DNA of 64,000 nucleotides, taken from Metabacillus endolithicus. Lineage in GTDB: Bacteria > Bacillota > Bacilli > Bacillales > Bacillaceae. The stretch lies in NCBI RefSeq assembly GCF_023078335.1, contig NZ_CP095550.1:186001-250000 (forward strand), in the 5' to 3' direction. Made by a program: the position numbers and the translations under genes. Positions 28,428 to 36,955 of the stretch are shown piece by piece (within the stretch, counting starts at the first letter, position 1; every line of letters starts with the position of its first letter). The notes under the pieces were generated by a model. It worked only from the letters and a program-made list of their open reading frames with translations. It was not told where the DNA came from and searched no databases.

Positions 28428-31400
28428 TTAGTTCTCAACAACACATAATTTTTTATGAGTTAAAGCTCCTTGATGAATTGCATCAAATTTTAATGCAATG
28501 TTTAATTCCTCAATAGCTTGTTGATGTTGATTTAATCCAATTAATCCAAGTGCCCTCATGTAACGACAGTGAATTTCGTTCCGCTTTTTTAAATCTTCAT
28601 CAAATACTAAAAAGTCTGGAAGCGAAACAGCAAAATAATCTATTTTAGGAGAATCAAATAAGTGTTTTTCTCCATAATCTATTAACTTATTAAAACGACT
28701 TTTTGACTCTTTAAACCTCTTTAATTTTTGTAAAGCTAAACCTTGGTAGAAAATCATATCCGCTGGCTGATCATTGTAATAAAGGGCACTTGCTGGTTCA
28801 TCTAATCCTTTTGATGCAGTTGTAAAAGATTCGACAGCACTGTGTTCATCTTTTAACCCTTCATAAGCACAACCTAGGTAATAGTAAATATTATTCTCTT
28901 GTGCACCAGCAAGTTTTCCCTCACCTAAATTTTCAGGATAGATAAGAGCTTTCTTAAAAGTTTTTAAAGCGTTTACAAACTGTCTTTTTTGAAGATAATC
29001 TTTTCCAAGCTCAATATGAGCATATACATATTGCCCTGTTACCTTTCCTTCTCCCCCTTCCCATGGATGAAAGATACGCCTTTCGAGTAATTTTAATGCT
29101 TTCTCATAATAACCTAGGCAATTTAGGATCGTAACATATTCAATATACAAATCATCTCTTGATTCAACTAACGGTAAATGCTTATTTAAATGATGAAATC
29201 TTTTCTCTGGTGAATAGCCTAATTTCTTATGTAGTTGGTCTAATTCATACAATACCCTTGCATCAGAAGGATCACAATCAAATGCTGTCTGTAAAGAAAT
29301 TAGGGCAATATTTTCATCTTGTAATTGGTTATAGTAGGCAATAGCAAGGTTTCGATGTACGGTTGCAAAACCAGGGTTTATATCCCTTGAGGTTTCCCAT
29401 TGTGATATTGCTTCTTTATACCTTTTTTTATCATAAAGCAAATTGCCTAAATAATAGCAAGCCTTGCTATCCTTTGGATTTGCATTAATAGCAGTCTCTA
29501 GCACAAGCAACTCAAATAAGCTATTCGGAAAACAATAATCAGATGAAACTAAGTTACCAGAGATCCTATAAAGCTGGGCTTTCTCTTCTTGACCTAGTTT
29601 TGAATACAAATATCCTAAAGAATAATAAATAATTGGATTTCCCTCATTTACAACTTTTGGGATTAATCGACTTAAAATTTGTATTGCTTCTTCATAAGCT
29701 CCACATTCTTCATAATCAGCAGCTAAATTTAAGAAATTATGAGAATCACCTCTCATAAAAACTTCAAGTTCCGATATGGTAGAGTGAGCATCGTTAGAAT
29801 TTCCTAATTCTAAATAAACTAAATAGAGTTCATAATAAGCTCCAAAATCTGCAATATCCATCATGATCGTCTCTTTAGCAAAACGTTCTGCTTCTTTTAA
29901 AGAACCGGTTTTTCGTAGTAACATTGTTTTTAAGTGACGCCCTTTAAAATTTCTACTATTGCGAACTAAGGATTTTTCTATAAATTCTAATGCTCGTTGA
30001 TACAATCCTTTAGTTGACTCAATTTGAGCTAGGGAAAAATATCCACATTCTTGCCAATGCGATGACCAAACGGATTTATAAAAGGCACTGTATGCTTCAT
30101 CTAATTTTCCTTGTAACTTGAGTGATAGACCAAGCTGATAATAGGCTTCACTGTCATATGGATTTGGGTTTCTCCAGGTTAATAACTCAATAGCTTTATT
30201 AAAACATTCTTCACTCTTTTTAAATAATCCTCTCCGAAACAACAATGTTCCGTAGGCCACGTTAATTCTGATATTTTTTGGTTCTCTTTTTAACCCTTCT
30301 AAGTAATATTCATCAGGCTCCAAGGTAGCATGCCTATACTGCTCTAAATGTAGTCCTGCAAGATATAATTCCTCTGTCGTTGTTAATTCTTGTGGAGAGG
30401 GTAATGATTTTGCCGGTTTTGGTATTTCTTCTATTTGTTTTTTTGCTGGTTGATATGAAACTAATAATTGCTTCTTTTCATCTTTGACAGTCAAAAATAA
30501 ATCATGTTCAAGTTCACTTTGATCTATTTGAATATGGACCCTATATGTTTGATTTGGAGATATATTAATTTTTTCATTTAAGTAAGATCGTTTCTTACCA
30601 TTTAACTCGACAGTTGCACCCTTATAATTTGATGTTGCGTAAACATGAATAGTAGCCTGATTTAATAAAGAATCTACTTCTAAATTCACAGCAGCATGTT
30701 TTGAAGCATTTTTCACCAGTCCAATATGCTTATAAGGCATAAAATATTGGGTGAATCTTTTTTCTTCATAAGGATGTAGCCATGTAAAATCCGGCTGATT
30801 ATCAGTAAACACACCGGTCATTAACTCAATATATGGACCATCATCGTCCGTTAATTGGCGGTCCCAAGCTTTTCCAAAGTCACCATTCCCCCAAGTCCAT
30901 TGCTTTTTCCCCGGAGAAATATAGTGATCCGCTACATGAAGCAAACCTGCTCGCAAGTTATGATCATATCCCCCCAACAAAATCGTAATCCGATTTGTAA
31001 GCCATATAAGAAGTTGGAACTGGGATGTTTTTATAACGAGAGATATCTACTCCTTCTGAATAATCCATTTTATAATAAGTGCCGGTTGCTATTGGAAAGC
31101 GTGATACATCTCTCTTACCATGATCAAAAACGGCATGAACATCTGGCGGAAAGACAGATTGTGTATGATCATTTACTGCAACAGCTGGATTGGCCCACCA
31201 AAGAAATGTTTGAGGTTGTGATGTGCGATTATACAGCTGTGCCTTTATTTCTAAGTATGCTTTCCCAGGATGTAGGGTAAAACCAGCTGTTACTTTTGTG
31301 CCGTACATTCTATCTATTTCACTCACCCATACCGTAGCACTTCCATCATCATTTTCTGTTAATTTATATTCAACTGGTCCATAAGTATTTGGACGATGAT

Positions 31401-31773
31401 GTTGTGGCCAGTTGAACTCTATTCCTCCAGAAATCCATGGACCTGCCAATCCAACAAGTGCTGGTTTAATAACTGTATTGTAATAAACGAAATCGTAATT
31501 ATTCGTTTTATCTAATGCTCTGTATATACGGCCACCCAATTCTGGCATTACTTCAATACGTAAATATTCATTTTCTACTATTACGAGGTTATACGATTTT
31601 AGTTTTTTCTGGTCGTGTATCTTATCTATTACTGGATGAGGATATACCTTTCCAGAGCTACCTTGATACACTCTTTTTTCAAGAAACATTGGATTCTTAT
31701 TTGGTTCCCCTACCTCATAGGTAGGGATTTGTCGTGCTTCTTCCCATAAATGAACTTTTTGTTCGTTCTTCAC
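28428..31773 (-). pseudogene. DUF5107 protein with long TPR array, one frameshift in a G run
   Basis: The N-terminal DUF5107 part (about 380 residues) has a galactose-mutarotase-like look: YLRIEVMPELGGRIYRALDK, GPWISGGIEFNWPQHHRP, LWWANPAVAVND, then HYISPGKKQWTWGNGDFG. The rest, up to about 1115 residues, is tetratricopeptide repeats (YYQLGLSLKLQGKLDEAYSA; ACYYLGNLLYDKKRYKEAI). The frame breaks in six G (30970-30975): VGGI-stop in one frame, GGYDHNLRAGLLH in the other. The start is GTG 31773 behind GGAGGAGGG. Such proteins often accompany GH35, GH2 and ABC sugar genes; their activity is not established. First gene of the minus-strand operon. Confidence 0.8.
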
Positions 31774-32834: not shown

Positions 32835-32890
32835 TGACACTTTTCCTTAATAAAAACAAACTAAAGAAAACACACCAAACAAAAAAGTAA

Positions 32891-32910
32891 GGGACAGTGT
32901 ACCTGTCCCT
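32891..32910 (-). repeat. Dispersed GGGACAG palindrome, copy 2, acting as operon terminator
   Basis: GGGACAGTGTACCTGTCCC directly follows the stop codon of the aminopropyltransferase gene. On the minus strand a T-rich tract follows, so it can terminate the five-gene operon. Confidence 0.65.
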
Positions 32911-34464
32911 CTAATAACTTCTCCAAGCCTTTTCATATTTTTCGATAATGGTTGGTCTAGTTAGGGTATTGGTTTCAAGTTGGATTTGATTTCCGTTTTG
33001 ATCTAAGATATCCTGATCAATATCTTTGCCAAAGGAAGTTAGTCCTTTTAAGACTTCATTTGTTAGAAAATTGGTTTCAACTGTTATGCTTGTTTCGTTT
33101 AGATTGACTTCTTCTCTTTTGGCTAAAACAAAGCCCCAATCACCGAAGCTTGGAACATCGACGTGGAGATTTTCTGTATGAAGATTTGCAGCCTGTACGG
33201 TTTTGTTGATTGACCAATAAACTTCTGTTGCGAAAGTAGGACTTGTGGCTTGGATCATGATGGATCCTCCTGGTGCTAAGCGATTACGAACTAATTGATA
33301 AAATTCAAGTGTATATAGTTTGTTTAATGATTCATTATTTGGATCTGGTAAGTCTATTAAAATAACATCATAAAAAGTATGATGATTGTTTTTTAGAAAT
33401 TGAAAGGCATCTTCGCTTATAACCTGTACACGTTCATCTTCGAATGATTGTTCATTTAGGTTTACCACATCACGATTGGTTTTTGCTAGTTCTACAACTC
33501 TCGGATCAAGGTCAACTAAAGTCATCGACTTGATTTCATCATACTTTTGTAATTCTCTTAGAGCTAAACCATCGCCACCACCAAGGATCAGCACATTTTC
33601 TTTAGTAGATGCTGTTGCTACTACTGGGTGAACAAGTGTTTCGTGATAACGATATTCATCACTAGAACTAAATTGAAGTTGTCCATCTAAAAATAATCGC
33701 AAATCTCCTTGTTCCTTCGTTAAAATGATTTGCTGATAATCTGTCTGTTCTGTATAAATGATCGGATCTCTATAAAGCTTTTGTTCAAAAGTAAAAGCTG
33801 TTTCTTCACCAAAGAATATGCCACCTACAAGCAAAAGTAAAATAAGTATTCCTGCTGAAAAATGACGCTTAAACGACGGAATTTCTCGTTTAAAGTAATG
33901 TAAGATCCACAGGGCAATGACAACATTAATAAGCGCCACCAGAAATGCTGTTTTTACTAGTCCAAATTCAGGACGAAGTAAGTACACAAAAAGCAAACCA
34001 CCAATTAATCCACCTGCGTAATCAGAAAATAAAACTCTAGCAGTACTTTTTTGCAGAGTTACACCAATTTCATTTGCCTTTCTAATCAAAATTGGCAGCT
34101 CGACTCCTGTTAATGCCCCAACGATTAGCGTGATGGAATAAAGAAAGAATGCATCCATCCCTGGACTTAGAAAGGCTGAAACACCGAACAGCAAAAAGGT
34201 TGAAAGACCACCTAGAATTCCAATTGAATATTCAATCCAAACAAATGATAAAATTAAATTCTTTGTTACCTTCTCACTTATTGAAGCACCGATCCCCATA
34301 CCTGTTAGAAAAAGAGAAATGGTGAGGGTGTATTGTTTCACACCATCACCAAGTAAATAAGAGCCAGCTGCACCAAATAATACTTCAAAAATAATTCCAC
34401 ATACAGATACAATGCCTGATGCCCAATAGATCGCTTTGCTTTTTTTCATATTCTGTTCAATCAC
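32911..34464 (-). CDS. Membrane-anchored polyamine aminopropyltransferase (spermidine-synthase-like)
   Basis: About 210 N-terminal residues form seven or eight membrane helices. The rest is a spermidine-synthase fold: ILTKEQGDLRLFLDGQLQFS, the cofactor loop VLILGGGDGLALRELQ, acidic LVDLDPRVVELAK, and VILIDLPDPNNESL. The family transfers aminopropyl from decarboxylated SAM to an amine acceptor. The start is GTG 34464 with AAGGAG 8 bases upstream; an ATG at 34515 would overlap the DUF350 gene. Last gene of the PspA operon. Membrane fusion suggests a membrane-side or lipid-linked acceptor (inference). No SAM decarboxylase gene is nearby. Confidence 0.85.
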   Translation of the reverse strand: MIEQNMKKSKAIYWASGIVSVCGIIFEVLFGAAGSYLLGDGVKQYTLTISLFLTGMGIGASISEKVTKNLILSFVWIEYSIGILGGLSTFLLFGVSAFLSPGMDAFFLYSITLIVGALTGVELPILIRKANEIGVTLQKSTARVLFSDYAGGLIGGLLFVYLLRPEFGLVKTAFLVALINVVIALWILHYFKREIPSFKRHFSAGILILLLLVGGIFFGEETAFTFEQKLYRDPIIYTEQTDYQQIILTKEQGDLRLFLDGQLQFSSSDEYRYHETLVHPVVATASTKENVLILGGGDGLALRELQKYDEIKSMTLVDLDPRVVELAKTNRDVVNLNEQSFEDERVQVISEDAFQFLKNNHHTFYDVILIDLPDPNNESLNKLYTLEFYQLVRNRLAPGGSIMIQATSPTFATEVYWSINKTVQAANLHTENLHVDVPSFGDWGFVLAKREEVNLNETSITVETNFLTNEVLKGLTSFGKDIDQDILDQNGNQIQLETNTLTRPTIIEKYEKAWRSY

Positions 34465-34489
34465 GCAACTGTCTCCTTGTTTATCATTC

Positions 34490-34885
34490 TTATGTAATTG
34501 ACGCTCCAATGACAAATGCTAATCCAATTGATACACACATACTAACGATTCCTACCGAAATATTGCCTTTTTTAAGTTGTTCTTCAACAGAAAAATTTCT
34601 CGTGAAAAGCTCGAATAATAGGTAAGCAATTAATTGAAGAAGAATTCCATATGCCCCCCAAATAATTGTATCGACAACACTTGCGCTATGATAAATGGAG
34701 AAGGCTAAAACAATACAAATACCCACGATTTTCCCACCAATTGAAAGGGAAACGGCGTGGTTACCATTTAAAATTTCATCCCAATCTTTATATTTCTTTG
34801 TCATCAATTCAAATATAAGTAAGCCAATAAGTACAATTGCAATTGCAATAATAAAATACACAGCCGTTAAAATAAAAGGCCCCAT
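34490..34885 (-). CDS. DUF350 membrane protein (131 aa)
   Basis: The protein has four membrane helices with the internal duplication of DUF350 (YjfL-like): TAVYFIIAIAIVLIGLLIFE in the first half, WGAYGILLQLIAYLLFELFT in the second. GNHAVSLSIGGKIVGICIVL and GNISVGIVSMCVSIGLAFVI are matching second helices of the repeats. DUF350 genes are repeatedly found with PspA and spermidine-synthase-like genes in other bacteria. The gene lies 22 bases after the lipoprotein gene and ahead of the aminopropyltransferase. It may be an integral partner or channel in that system; the biochemical role is unknown. Confidence 0.85.
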   Translation of the reverse strand: MGPFILTAVYFIIAIAIVLIGLLIFELMTKKYKDWDEILNGNHAVSLSIGGKIVGICIVLAFSIYHSASVVDTIIWGAYGILLQLIAYLLFELFTRNFSVEEQLKKGNISVGIVSMCVSIGLAFVIGASIT

Positions 34886-34907
34886 ACTTTCTCATTCCCT
34901 TCATTTC

Positions 34908-35516
34908 TTATTTTCCAGTACCAGGTCCCCCACCGCGAACAGAGGAGGTTCCACCTCTAACCGTTGAAGTTCCTCCTGTTTTGAAAGATCCACCGGAAGA
35001 ACTATATCCCCTATAGCAATCATCCTGGTTAGAATAACATTTGTTACTTTGCTTCTTTCCCCAATCATCTACATCAAGAACTTCATCTAATACCCAAAGT
35101 AAAAATAATCCGTCAAAAAAGTCAGGACTATAATTGTTACGAACAAAGTCATAAGTAGAGACTTCAACCAATGTATTCGCAGGGTTTTCTTCGTCATTTG
35201 TTAACATAACAAAAGTATCTTGATAGATTAGAACTTGCTTGTTTTCTTTTTTTTCACTAACTTCTCTAGGTTTCTCATATTCTTGTAATTCATTAGCTAC
35301 ATCATCAATGGATTTATTTTCAGCGCTATAGATTTCAGAAATCTGTCCGGATTGTCCTTGACTTGAGACAACATCTTGTAAAATATATGTAGTGCTAATA
35401 AAATCCGCTATTCCATCCTTAAAAAATGATCCTTCAGTGGAACCTTGTGTTTCACTTCCACAAGCTGATAAAAGAAGAATACAAGATAGAAAAATAAAAA
35501 GAAGTGGTTTTTTCAT
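34908..35516 (-). CDS. DUF4247 lipoprotein (202 aa)
   Basis: The signal peptide ends in a lipobox, LLLSAC, with lipidated Cys19. The conserved body includes DGIADFISTTYILQDVV and YQDTFVMLTNDEENP, followed by YDFVRNNYSPDFFDGLFLLW. Two cysteines flank NKCYSNQDDCYRGYSSSGGS. The last 30 residues are Gly/Thr/Arg-rich (GGTSTVRGGTSSVRGGG), a low-complexity basic tail unusual outside this family. It is anchored on the outer face of the membrane. It is the third gene of the PspA operon, separated from pspA by 97 bases with a hairpin. Function unknown. Confidence 0.8.
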   Translation of the reverse strand: MKKPLLFIFLSCILLLSACGSETQGSTEGSFFKDGIADFISTTYILQDVVSSQGQSGQISEIYSAENKSIDDVANELQEYEKPREVSEKKENKQVLIYQDTFVMLTNDEENPANTLVEVSTYDFVRNNYSPDFFDGLFLLWVLDEVLDVDDWGKKQSNKCYSNQDDCYRGYSSSGGSFKTGGTSTVRGGTSSVRGGGPGTGK

Positions 35517-35549
35517 CGACTCACCTTCTTTCCTGACATACTATTTCGT

Positions 35550-35589
35550 AGACATCCAAAGACCTTAAATGATGATACAATGGATGTCT
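35550..35589 (-). promoter_or_regulatory. Intercistronic hairpin between pspA and the DUF4247 gene
   Basis: AGACATCCA (35550-35558) pairs with TGGATGTCT (35581-35589) without a T tract. It may lower downstream expression relative to pspA, as expected for a scaffold protein needed in excess. Confidence 0.45.
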
Positions 35590-35613
35590 GAAGAAATCTA
35601 ATTTACTTTATCT

Positions 35614-36282
35614 TTATTCTTTTCCAAGCTTCTTCTTCAAAGCAGCTAGCTCATCATCAACATCATTTTTTTCAAGTGCTGCGAACTCATCATCAAGACT
35701 TCGATTAGAAGATCTTAAATCTTCACTTGTTTCTGCTTCTGCTTCATATTGAAGGACTTTTTCTTCCATTCGCTCAAAACCGCGTTTTGATTCATCATTT
35801 CCAATACCAGAAAGAGTACGGTTTATTTTTGTTCTTGTTTTAGCAGATTCAGCACGAGCTTTTAGTGAATCTTTTTTCAGTTTCATTTCGTTATATTCGG
35901 CTTTCATTTCGTCTAATTTTTTCCTTAATGAATCTGAATCAAGCTTAGCACGTTCATACGATTCTTTTAAAGTGTCTAGCGTTTGCTGGTGAATTTTCTT
36001 GTCTTCTAGTGCACGCCTAGCAAGATCATCGTTACCCGCTTCGATTGCTTGAATCGCTTGCTCATCACGTTTTTGGACCATCTTTTTAGCATCTTCATAT
36101 TTTTTTTGCAACATTTTTTCGTTCGCGATTTGTTTAGCAATCGCTGTTTCTGCTTCGCGTATATCTGATTCCATCTCTCTCATGAATTGATCGAGCATCT
36201 TAACAGGATCTTCAGCTTTATCCAATAATGAATTCAATTCAGAATCTACTACCGTTTTTACCCTTTTAAATAATCGAAACAT
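35614..36282 (-). CDS. pspA: PspA/IM30 family membrane-maintenance protein
   Basis: The 222-residue protein is a nearly continuous coiled coil. The N-terminal amphipathic helix (MFRLFKRVKTVVDSELNSLL) and EDPVKMLDQFMREMESDI are hallmarks of PspA/LiaH/YjfJ proteins, ESCRT-III relatives that bind and support stressed membranes from the cytoplasm. The C-terminus ends in acidic-basic DDEFAALEKNDVDDELAAL, seen in the YjfJ-like subgroup found with DUF350. AGGAGG lies just upstream of the start, 11 bases after the DUF4178 gene. It is probably the structural core of this operon's function. Confidence 0.9.
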   Translation of the reverse strand: MFRLFKRVKTVVDSELNSLLDKAEDPVKMLDQFMREMESDIREAETAIAKQIANEKMLQKKYEDAKKMVQKRDEQAIQAIEAGNDDLARRALEDKKIHQQTLDTLKESYERAKLDSDSLRKKLDEMKAEYNEMKLKKDSLKARAESAKTRTKINRTLSGIGNDESKRGFERMEEKVLQYEAEAETSEDLRSSNRSLDDEFAALEKNDVDDELAALKKKLGKE

Positions 36283-36293
36283 GTTATTTCCTC

Positions 36294-36803
36294 CTATTTA
36301 CTTGCTATGATTTTTAATTCATATTGTTCAATTTCATATCCAGTGCTTACTTCAATTTCACTGCCCCATTTTTCAACAGACAGAAATTTCTCTTCCTCTT
36401 CATCACAATAGTCATAATATTGACAAACCATACCATTTATGTTTTGATTACGCCCGATACCTGTTACTCTGGCGCTTCCAGATTCATCCAAATGATAGGT
36501 AATTCCTTCATATTCCAGTTTTTTTGGAATTGGTTCTTGAAGATTAAGCTTTACTTTCTCGTAAATTCCCAAATAAAGCTCATCATCCATTTCAACACTT
36601 AACCAAATGGTTTTTGAAACTCCCTCAAGTTGATAGGCATGCCACTTAAATCCATGATCATCATAGCTTATTTTACCGACTATTTTGTAATCCTCGAGAT
36701 CATATGTGACAATATCATCTGTTTGCAGGTTAAACATATTTCGTTCTTCAACAGACTTATTGTTTGTTTGACTCTTACCAAATAATTTACTAAAGAAACT
36801 CAT
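36294..36803 (-). CDS. DUF4178 protein (169 aa)
   Basis: First gene of the PspA operon. After a basic N-terminus (SFFSKLFGKSQ, possibly membrane-associating) it has one DUF4178 domain: LQTDDIVTYDLEDYKIVGKI, WHAYQLEGVSKTIWLSVEMD, ITYHLDESGSARVTGIG, and the end VEKWGSEIEVSTGYEIEQYE. The domain is beta-rich and of unknown function, and is repeatedly linked to PspA, DUF350 and polyamine genes. Intact and well supported. Confidence 0.82.
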   Translation of the reverse strand: MSFFSKLFGKSQTNNKSVEERNMFNLQTDDIVTYDLEDYKIVGKISYDDHGFKWHAYQLEGVSKTIWLSVEMDDELYLGIYEKVKLNLQEPIPKKLEYEGITYHLDESGSARVTGIGRNQNINGMVCQYYDYCDEEEEKFLSVEKWGSEIEVSTGYEIEQYELKIIASK

Positions 36804-36936
36804 AAACTCACCCCGCTTTTATTCTAATGTTTTCCAATAAATAATACGACTTAATGTTCAAAAGGTTTCACTTTGTTTAACAAAAGATCCTCATTAAATA
36901 GCGAATTAATTCGAAACAATGGGTTCAACTTCAAAT

Positions 36937-36955
36937 GGGACAATGAACCTGTCCC
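36937..36955. repeat. Dispersed GGGACAG palindrome, copy 3
   Basis: GGGACAATGAACCTGTCCC abuts the stop codon of the LLM oxidoreductase gene. There is no good T tract on the minus strand, so termination is uncertain. With copy 2 it brackets the PspA operon. Confidence 0.55.

Follow-up and report, generated by a model that had tools for sequence, protein, structure and literature searches.

A lysine-ended lipoprotein tail as candidate substrate of the membrane-fused aminopropyltransferase in a PspA operon of Metabacillus endolithicus

Organization of the operon

The window analysed here, a 64,000-nucleotide stretch of DNA from Metabacillus endolithicus (NZ_CP095550.1), contains a five-gene operon on its minus strand (36803–32911) that combines a PspA protein, a lipoprotein and two proteins of uncharted families with a spermidine-synthase-like enzyme fused to a membrane domain. 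The C-terminal lysine tail of the lipoprotein comes and goes with this enzyme in other bacteria and is a candidate for its substrate. The five open reading frames (ORFs) have the coordinates given in an earlier note on this DNA, and each scores above the Pfam cut-off of its named family. In operon order, they encode a DUF4178 protein of 169 residues (36294–36803; PF13785, 116.7 bits), a PspA/IM30 family protein (PspA_IM30) of 222 residues (35614–36282; PF04012, 169.4 bits), a DUF4247 lipoprotein of 202 residues (34908–35516; PF14042, 52.9 bits) with the lipobox LSAC and the C-terminal sequence VRGGGPGTGK, a DUF350 membrane protein of 131 residues (34490–34885; PF03994, 125 bits) and a membrane-fused aminopropyltransferase of 517 residues (32911–34464; Spermine_synth, 131.6 bits by Pfam; NCBIfam NF002956). 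The DUF4178 protein is probably cytoplasmic, with no signal peptide seen. The genes are separated by 11, 97 and 22 bases and finally by 25 bases, given an enzyme start at GTG 34464. This start codon lies behind AAGGAG, yields the length of close relatives and is most likely the true one; the longest ORF begins at 34515. None of the five proteins matches the GSP_synth ATP-grasp family or DUF2170 in Pfam, and a CesT/Tir-like PspA partner is absent among them. Neither DUF350 nor DUF4178 gave a relative by sequence in the PDB (one LSm3 match, E 0.46).

A sigma-W-type promoter (TGAAAC-N16-CGTA, minus strand, 36845–36870) precedes the operon and is conserved upstream of it in Bacilli. It is the only exact consensus match in the window, against 0.06 expected from shuffling. 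The same exact consensus stands ahead of the operon at 22 of the 26 Bacilli places examined, compared with 3 of 347 other genes there. The genome encodes SigW (above the family cut-off), and sigW is itself preceded by this consensus, 36 bases before its ORF. Both sequence marks of a sigma-W regulon member are thus in place, the TGAAAC-N16/17-CGTA motif ahead of the operon and a gene for SigW. Across the genome, 56 sites fit the consensus with a spacer of 16 or 17 and 18 fit the reversed pattern, which means that a third of such genomic sites may be due to chance; the operon promoter is credible because of its conservation at the Bacilli places. Two Actinomadura loci (L103 and L126) carry TGAAAC-N17-CGTC at about −100, upstream of DUF4178, a sequence resembling an extracytoplasmic function (ECF) sigma promoter outside Firmicutes. 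Behind the enzyme gene, a terminator-like hairpin leads into a T run (minus strand, 32889–32911). Its inverted repeat, GGGACAG..CTGTCCC, recurs at approximately 36926–36955 behind the upstream luciferase-like gene and possibly represents a repeat family that serves as terminators.

Pfam matches, short gaps, promoter and terminator establish the five genes as a real operon, as the earlier note had proposed, and its view of an envelope-acting unit is likewise supported. A synteny check also bore out the recurrence of the neighbourhood: the order DUF4178-PspA-DUF4247-DUF350-SpeE is kept across Bacilli while the flanking genes vary. One scan of named genomes yielded the best 80 of 557 confirmed relatives; a search of 299 Bacillota genomes gave nine above the cut-off. 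In total, 89 places including the window were surveyed, two of which are present twice (L037/L076 and L043/L091). DUF4178 is encoded at 78 of them, DUF350 at 76, DUF4247 at 57 and PspA at 38; on these counts, the idea that the system is built around PspA was ranked lower.

The C-terminal lysine tail accompanies the enzyme across phyla

The proposed substrate tail of the lipoprotein, VRGGGPGTGK (minus strand, 34911–34940), ends in K202, a lysine found in all 43 aligned DUF4247 sequences. The motif RGGGxxxGK-COOH occurs at an identical distance from the end in 99 of the 101 homologues listed, while the remainder of the protein falls to ~33% identity; the other two are a fragment and a distantly related sequence with the ending GRIMRRSR. 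The tail is also borne by other carriers. In Clostridia and some Bacteroidota, one protein (12 compared) combines DUF4178 with a single membrane helix and an outer domain resembling DUF4247. This domain of the fused Clostridial proteins was recognized by profile–profile comparison with the tails removed (97.0% probability, E 9.5e-11), Pfam itself giving no match. In Acidobacteria and others, the carrier is a one-helix protein of about 50–80 residues.

A C-terminal lysine tail, on these different carriers, is present at 77 of 86 enzyme places across phyla. This tally, with labels assigned by hand, leaves out L107 (no whole enzyme ORF) and the second copies L037 and L043. The tails comprise 67 of the strict GK type (66 plus L111), six GGK (L104, L108, L112, L117, L120 and L123) and four HK. 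The tail accompanies DUF350 at all 70 places that have it and DUF4178 at 73 of 74. Strict GK tails terminate 67 of 1994 ORFs near the enzyme but only 1 of 12,040 elsewhere, and that one is also the carrier. For comparison, a loose tail pattern has a background rate of 11 in 5783 ORFs, and lysine is the last residue of ~12% of the other genes at these places. Loose, chance-like ends at L096 (328 residues, AAYGGK, 4 kilobases off) and L122 (75 residues, PGGK) were not scored as tails. The nine tail-less places include three without upstream DNA (L049, L102 and L113), one with DUF4178 off the contig (L085) and five others.

Tail ends differ where the enzyme is absent and beside ligase-type genes

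A DUF4247 search that was blind to the enzyme found the family in 82 of 398 Bacilli genomes. Of these, 15 contain the membrane domain of the enzyme (13 by search, plus G000 and G178, which were counted as positive from the Bacillota search). All 16 DUF4247 sequences from the enzyme-positive genomes, window included, end in GGxxxGK. None of the 70 sequences from the 67 enzyme-free genomes has a GK end; 69 carry at least three Lys/Arg among the last five residues (for example GGSGRITKRR, GGGRIMRRR and GTGKVITKKK), the sole other sequence being that of G475, whose tail is seemingly out of frame. The comparison counts G760 as enzyme-free (weak match of 31.5 bits on a different contig) and omits one match with an internal stop (G589:C4). 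PspA, DUF350, DUF4178 and DUF4247 still stand together in the enzyme-free locus L217. Three enzyme-free genomes (G535, G546 and G568) have two adjacent DUF4247 genes each, both with basic C-termini.

A third type of tail is found beside ATP-grasp genes. In the Escherichia coli DUF1190 proteins YgiB and YjfM, an RGG[FY]G motif precedes a terminal GG; the two adjoin YgiC and YjfC, which RefSeq names peptide-spermidine ligases. The activity of ligases of this type is reportedly the subject of work by Pederick from 2023. Among 114 DUF1190 relatives, many of them fragments and most enterobacterial, the RGG motif is present in 59, and 57 of these have a GG end; one of 94 genomes in the class of G342 gave a DUF1190 match. 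Within enzyme-bearing genomes, the carriers beside GSP_synth genes end in GG at L170, L171 and L172 and in SS at L169, which runs against the GG rule, and an unrelated proteobacterial carrier beside a GSP_synth gene (L175) ends in GG. Overall, six of the seven carriers examined next to genes of the peptide-spermidine-ligase type end in GG; the weaker matches L173 and L174 were left out, and L168 has no clear carrier. At L172 (Paenibacillus), a GG-ending carrier, a GSP_synth-type gene and DUF350 constitute a separate second operon. No PF03738 match was found anywhere in 42 of the 49 enzyme-bearing genomes searched. Across the tail comparisons, the lysine end pairs with the aminopropyltransferase and the GG end with the ligase; where neither is present, a basic cluster is encoded.

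Structure and active site of the membrane-fused aminopropyltransferase

The enzyme matches NCBIfam PRK03612/NF002956 with 584.1 bits (cut-off 472) over residues 20–533 of the 534-residue ORF. D298 in the GGGDG motif for binding decarboxylated S-adenosylmethionine (dcAdoMet), Y273 and H274 (YH), and D371 and D374 in the catalytic DxxDP motif are invariant in 74 sequences that share 37–90% identity with the window enzyme, and an inactive enzyme was ranked lower because of this invariance. The AlphaFold2 model (predicted local distance difference test score of 93.8) adopts the spermidine synthase fold in its catalytic part. The closest solved structures are the Thermus thermophilus triamine/agmatine aminopropyltransferase and a thermospermine synthase (3anx and 1uir among the T. 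thermophilus comparisons), and these closest structural relatives take acceptors larger than putrescine.

The membrane domain (minus strand, 33772–34464) was assigned from hydropathy, loop charges, the model and fold comparison. Its 230 residues contain seven hydrophobic stretches and do not form a 12-helix one-chain transporter. Six helices are arranged as in one half of a major facilitator superfamily (MFS) transporter, and in the model the domain looks like such a half with a seventh helix added. Seven helices would place catalysis outside the membrane, on the side of the lipoprotein.

The aspartate retained in GGGDG makes dcAdoMet the expected donor. The earlier note had seen no S-adenosylmethionine (SAM) decarboxylase nearby and questioned the donor. 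This holds for the neighbourhood but not for the genome, which contains two AdoMet_dc matches above the cut-off far from the operon, with 128 residues (the Bacillus subtilis size) and 268 residues (the E. coli size), so a donor is available and the objection was ranked lower. The SAM decarboxylases lie at G000:C1:510437-510817 and 1275143-1275460 (L044 and L045). Related operons weaken the doubt further: a SpeD-cluster gene lies within ~7.5 kilobases at 22 of the 88 anchored-enzyme places used for neighbour counts (window included), one member being confirmed as AdoMet_dc by Pfam. At L057, L062, L060 and L064 (Ornithinibacillus, Oceanobacillus and Paucisalibacillus), the SAM decarboxylase gene is an immediate neighbour in divergent orientation; in Filobacillus (L071), it lies within the operon. 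Other neighbours at the 88 places are a flavin amine oxidase (12), a K+-channel-type gene (8), DUF2617 (7) and band-7 (5), each typed by Pfam in one member. The genome also encodes a second aminopropyltransferase, the soluble canonical SpeE, and has a weak third match.

Proposed modification of the lipoprotein tail

On the sequence comparisons, we put at about 0.5 the probability that the enzyme aminopropylates the C-terminal lysine of the tail and thereby provides the operon's own lipoprotein with a polyamine tip. The proposal is made because the catalytic residues are invariant, the structural relatives use larger acceptors, the lysine amine resembles putrescine and a fungal enzyme, NHMT, offers an analogy. 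Like putrescine, the side chain of lysine bears a primary amine on a chain of four carbons. The earlier note suggested a lipid, peptide or wall component as acceptor; for a peptide, strong comparative support now comes from a tail whose presence follows that of the enzyme. In the proposed sequence of events, the operon would be turned on under envelope stress, the lipoprotein would be exported and the enzyme would be anchored by its seven helices with the catalytic domain outside the membrane. Decarboxylated SAM, made by SpeD encoded away from the operon, would then donate aminopropyl groups to the side chain of the C-terminal lysine, whose amine would take the place of the diamine that ordinary spermidine synthases use as acceptor. 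Transport of dcAdoMet to the outside may fall to the half-MFS domain or to DUF350. The outcome would be a polyamine tip on a flexible tail rich in glycine. In weaker steps of the scheme, this polycationic tip might bind anionic lipid at the outer membrane face or plug a DUF350 pore, and DUF4178 and PspA might act on the inner face.

The equivalence of the encoded KRR/RRR ends with the GK tail suggests that a polycationic tip is what matters. By a tentative extension, which we hold to be possible and somewhat doubtful, such a tip on an extracytoplasmic, membrane-anchored protein would be reached by three interchangeable routes, namely encoded Lys/Arg, spermidine placed on GG by an ATP-grasp enzyme and extracellular aminopropylation of lysine, and would gate the DUF350 pore or clamp anionic lipid in PspA/sigma-W membrane protection. 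If aminopropylation of the tail is correct, a reaction and a substrate would be named for a widespread envelope-stress operon that had neither, a joint role would be explained for DUF4247, DUF4178 and DUF350, and aminopropyl on a C-terminal lysine would be a new protein modification, with a spermidine-synthase fold at work outside the cell.

Several observations weigh against aminopropylation of the tail. At five places (L096, L097, L098, L116 and L122), the enzyme occurs without a tail and without DUF350 or DUF4178 nearby, which indicates that it can exist without one, and the HK tails at L101, L106, L114 and L119 (on the other strand at L119) lack the glycines. The AlphaFold model presents residues 137–190 as a single helix run; six crossings instead of seven would put catalysis inside. 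A Foldseek search with the membrane domain gave no match at E <= 0.001, and a donor outside the cell would be unusual. On a DUF4247 tree built with the tails removed, one or two changes suffice for the tail switch. The 16/70 split therefore does not amount to 86 independent cases: the switch in Bacilli is clean in sequence but nearly a single evolutionary event.

The small number of changes on the tree would also suit a tail that is a sorting, cross-linking or processing signal of another system, linked to the enzyme through common descent of one operon type. We consider this improbable: the carriers of the tail in different phyla are unrelated to one another yet always belong to the operon of the enzyme, and next to ATP-grasp genes of the same genomes the tail becomes GG. 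A more serious alternative, though still rather unlikely, is that the enzyme sits in the membrane and makes free polyamine (spermidine or longer) for release or export at the envelope, the unmodified tail docking on or regulating the enzyme or the DUF350 pore. The intact spermidine-synthase active site, the NCBI family name (polyamine aminopropyltransferase), a half-MFS domain that could serve transport, and the amine oxidase and K+-channel-type genes at 12 and 8 of the 88 anchored places agree with it. Against it, the genome already has the soluble SpeE, and neither lysine as the last residue of every tail nor the Lys/Arg cluster that appears at the same end upon enzyme loss is explained.

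Membrane anchoring and the envelope-stress promoter would fit a membrane lipid or cell-wall polymer as acceptor, with the tail a separate matter. This is a slim prospect, given that the strict co-occurrence of tail and enzyme is left unexplained and that no lipid- or wall-synthesis gene recurs among the clustered neighbours. Enzyme folds do act as sensors in other envelope systems, and the domain might be a catalytically silent sensor of polyamine or dcAdoMet; the invariance of the catalytic Asp, Tyr and His and of GGGDG in the 74 sequences makes this very improbable.

Relation to known systems

The gene set has already been catalogued as a PspA neighbourhood in Ravi 2024 (PMC11237479), where no function is assigned and polyamine sensing or aminopropylation of other substrates is offered as a guess. 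The statement in the earlier note that the purpose is not established stands, but the set had been described. Operon group 2 in that paper shares with the window PspA, an N-terminally membrane-fused spermidine-synthase-like enzyme, DUF350, a lipoprotein and DUF4178, and DUF4247 is given as a replacement in another variant (PMC11237479); the group has a CesT/Tir-PspA dyad, which the window operon lacks. Section 19 of PMC11237479 is silent on a C-terminal lysine tail, on a substrate, on an active site outside the cytoplasm and on a sigma-W promoter, and a literature search, weak in subscription journals, yielded no paper proposing aminopropylation of the tail. The gene content being known, what is new is a likely substrate of the enzyme.

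The E. coli yjfIJKLM-yjfC and ygiB-ygiC systems resemble the operon in a PspA homologue, DUF350, a lipoprotein with a near-terminal RGG[FY]G motif and peptide polyamine chemistry. They differ in an ATP-grasp ligase, a GG-ending carrier and DUF2491, in place of the aminopropyltransferase, GK tail and DUF4178 of the window. yjfIJKL has been associated with heat tolerance (PMC12492005). The soluble SpeE enzymes of T. thermophilus (3anx and 1uir) have no membrane domain and use a free-amine acceptor, in contrast to the membrane-fused window enzyme with its proposed protein tail. In hypusine on eIF5A, a polyamine-derived group sits on a lysine side chain, as proposed for the tail; that modification is cytoplasmic, involves another enzyme and transfers aminobutyl instead of aminopropyl.

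Fungal NHMT (AN4663) joins seven membrane helices to a spermidine-synthase fold and works from the endoplasmic reticulum, where secreted proteins are methylated on their N-terminal histidine (PMC10349129). The window enzyme has the same fold and seven hydrophobic stretches that may correspond to the seven helices, with residues 137–190 drawn as a single helix run in its model. In NHMT, the acidic residue of GxG(D/E)G is replaced by Ile (PMC10349129). The fungal enzyme is a methyltransferase acting on an N-terminal His, whereas the window enzyme keeps the Asp (D298) and has a C-terminal Lys as its proposed target.

Other features of the window

An Rfam scan of the window gave no match. Beyond the operon, a DUF5107-TPR gene (minus strand, 28428–31773) appears to be split into two overlapping ORFs, with the first part of DUF5107 in ORF 30964–31773 and the end of DUF5107 and the TPR repeats in 28428–30980; this looks like a frameshift or a sequencing error.

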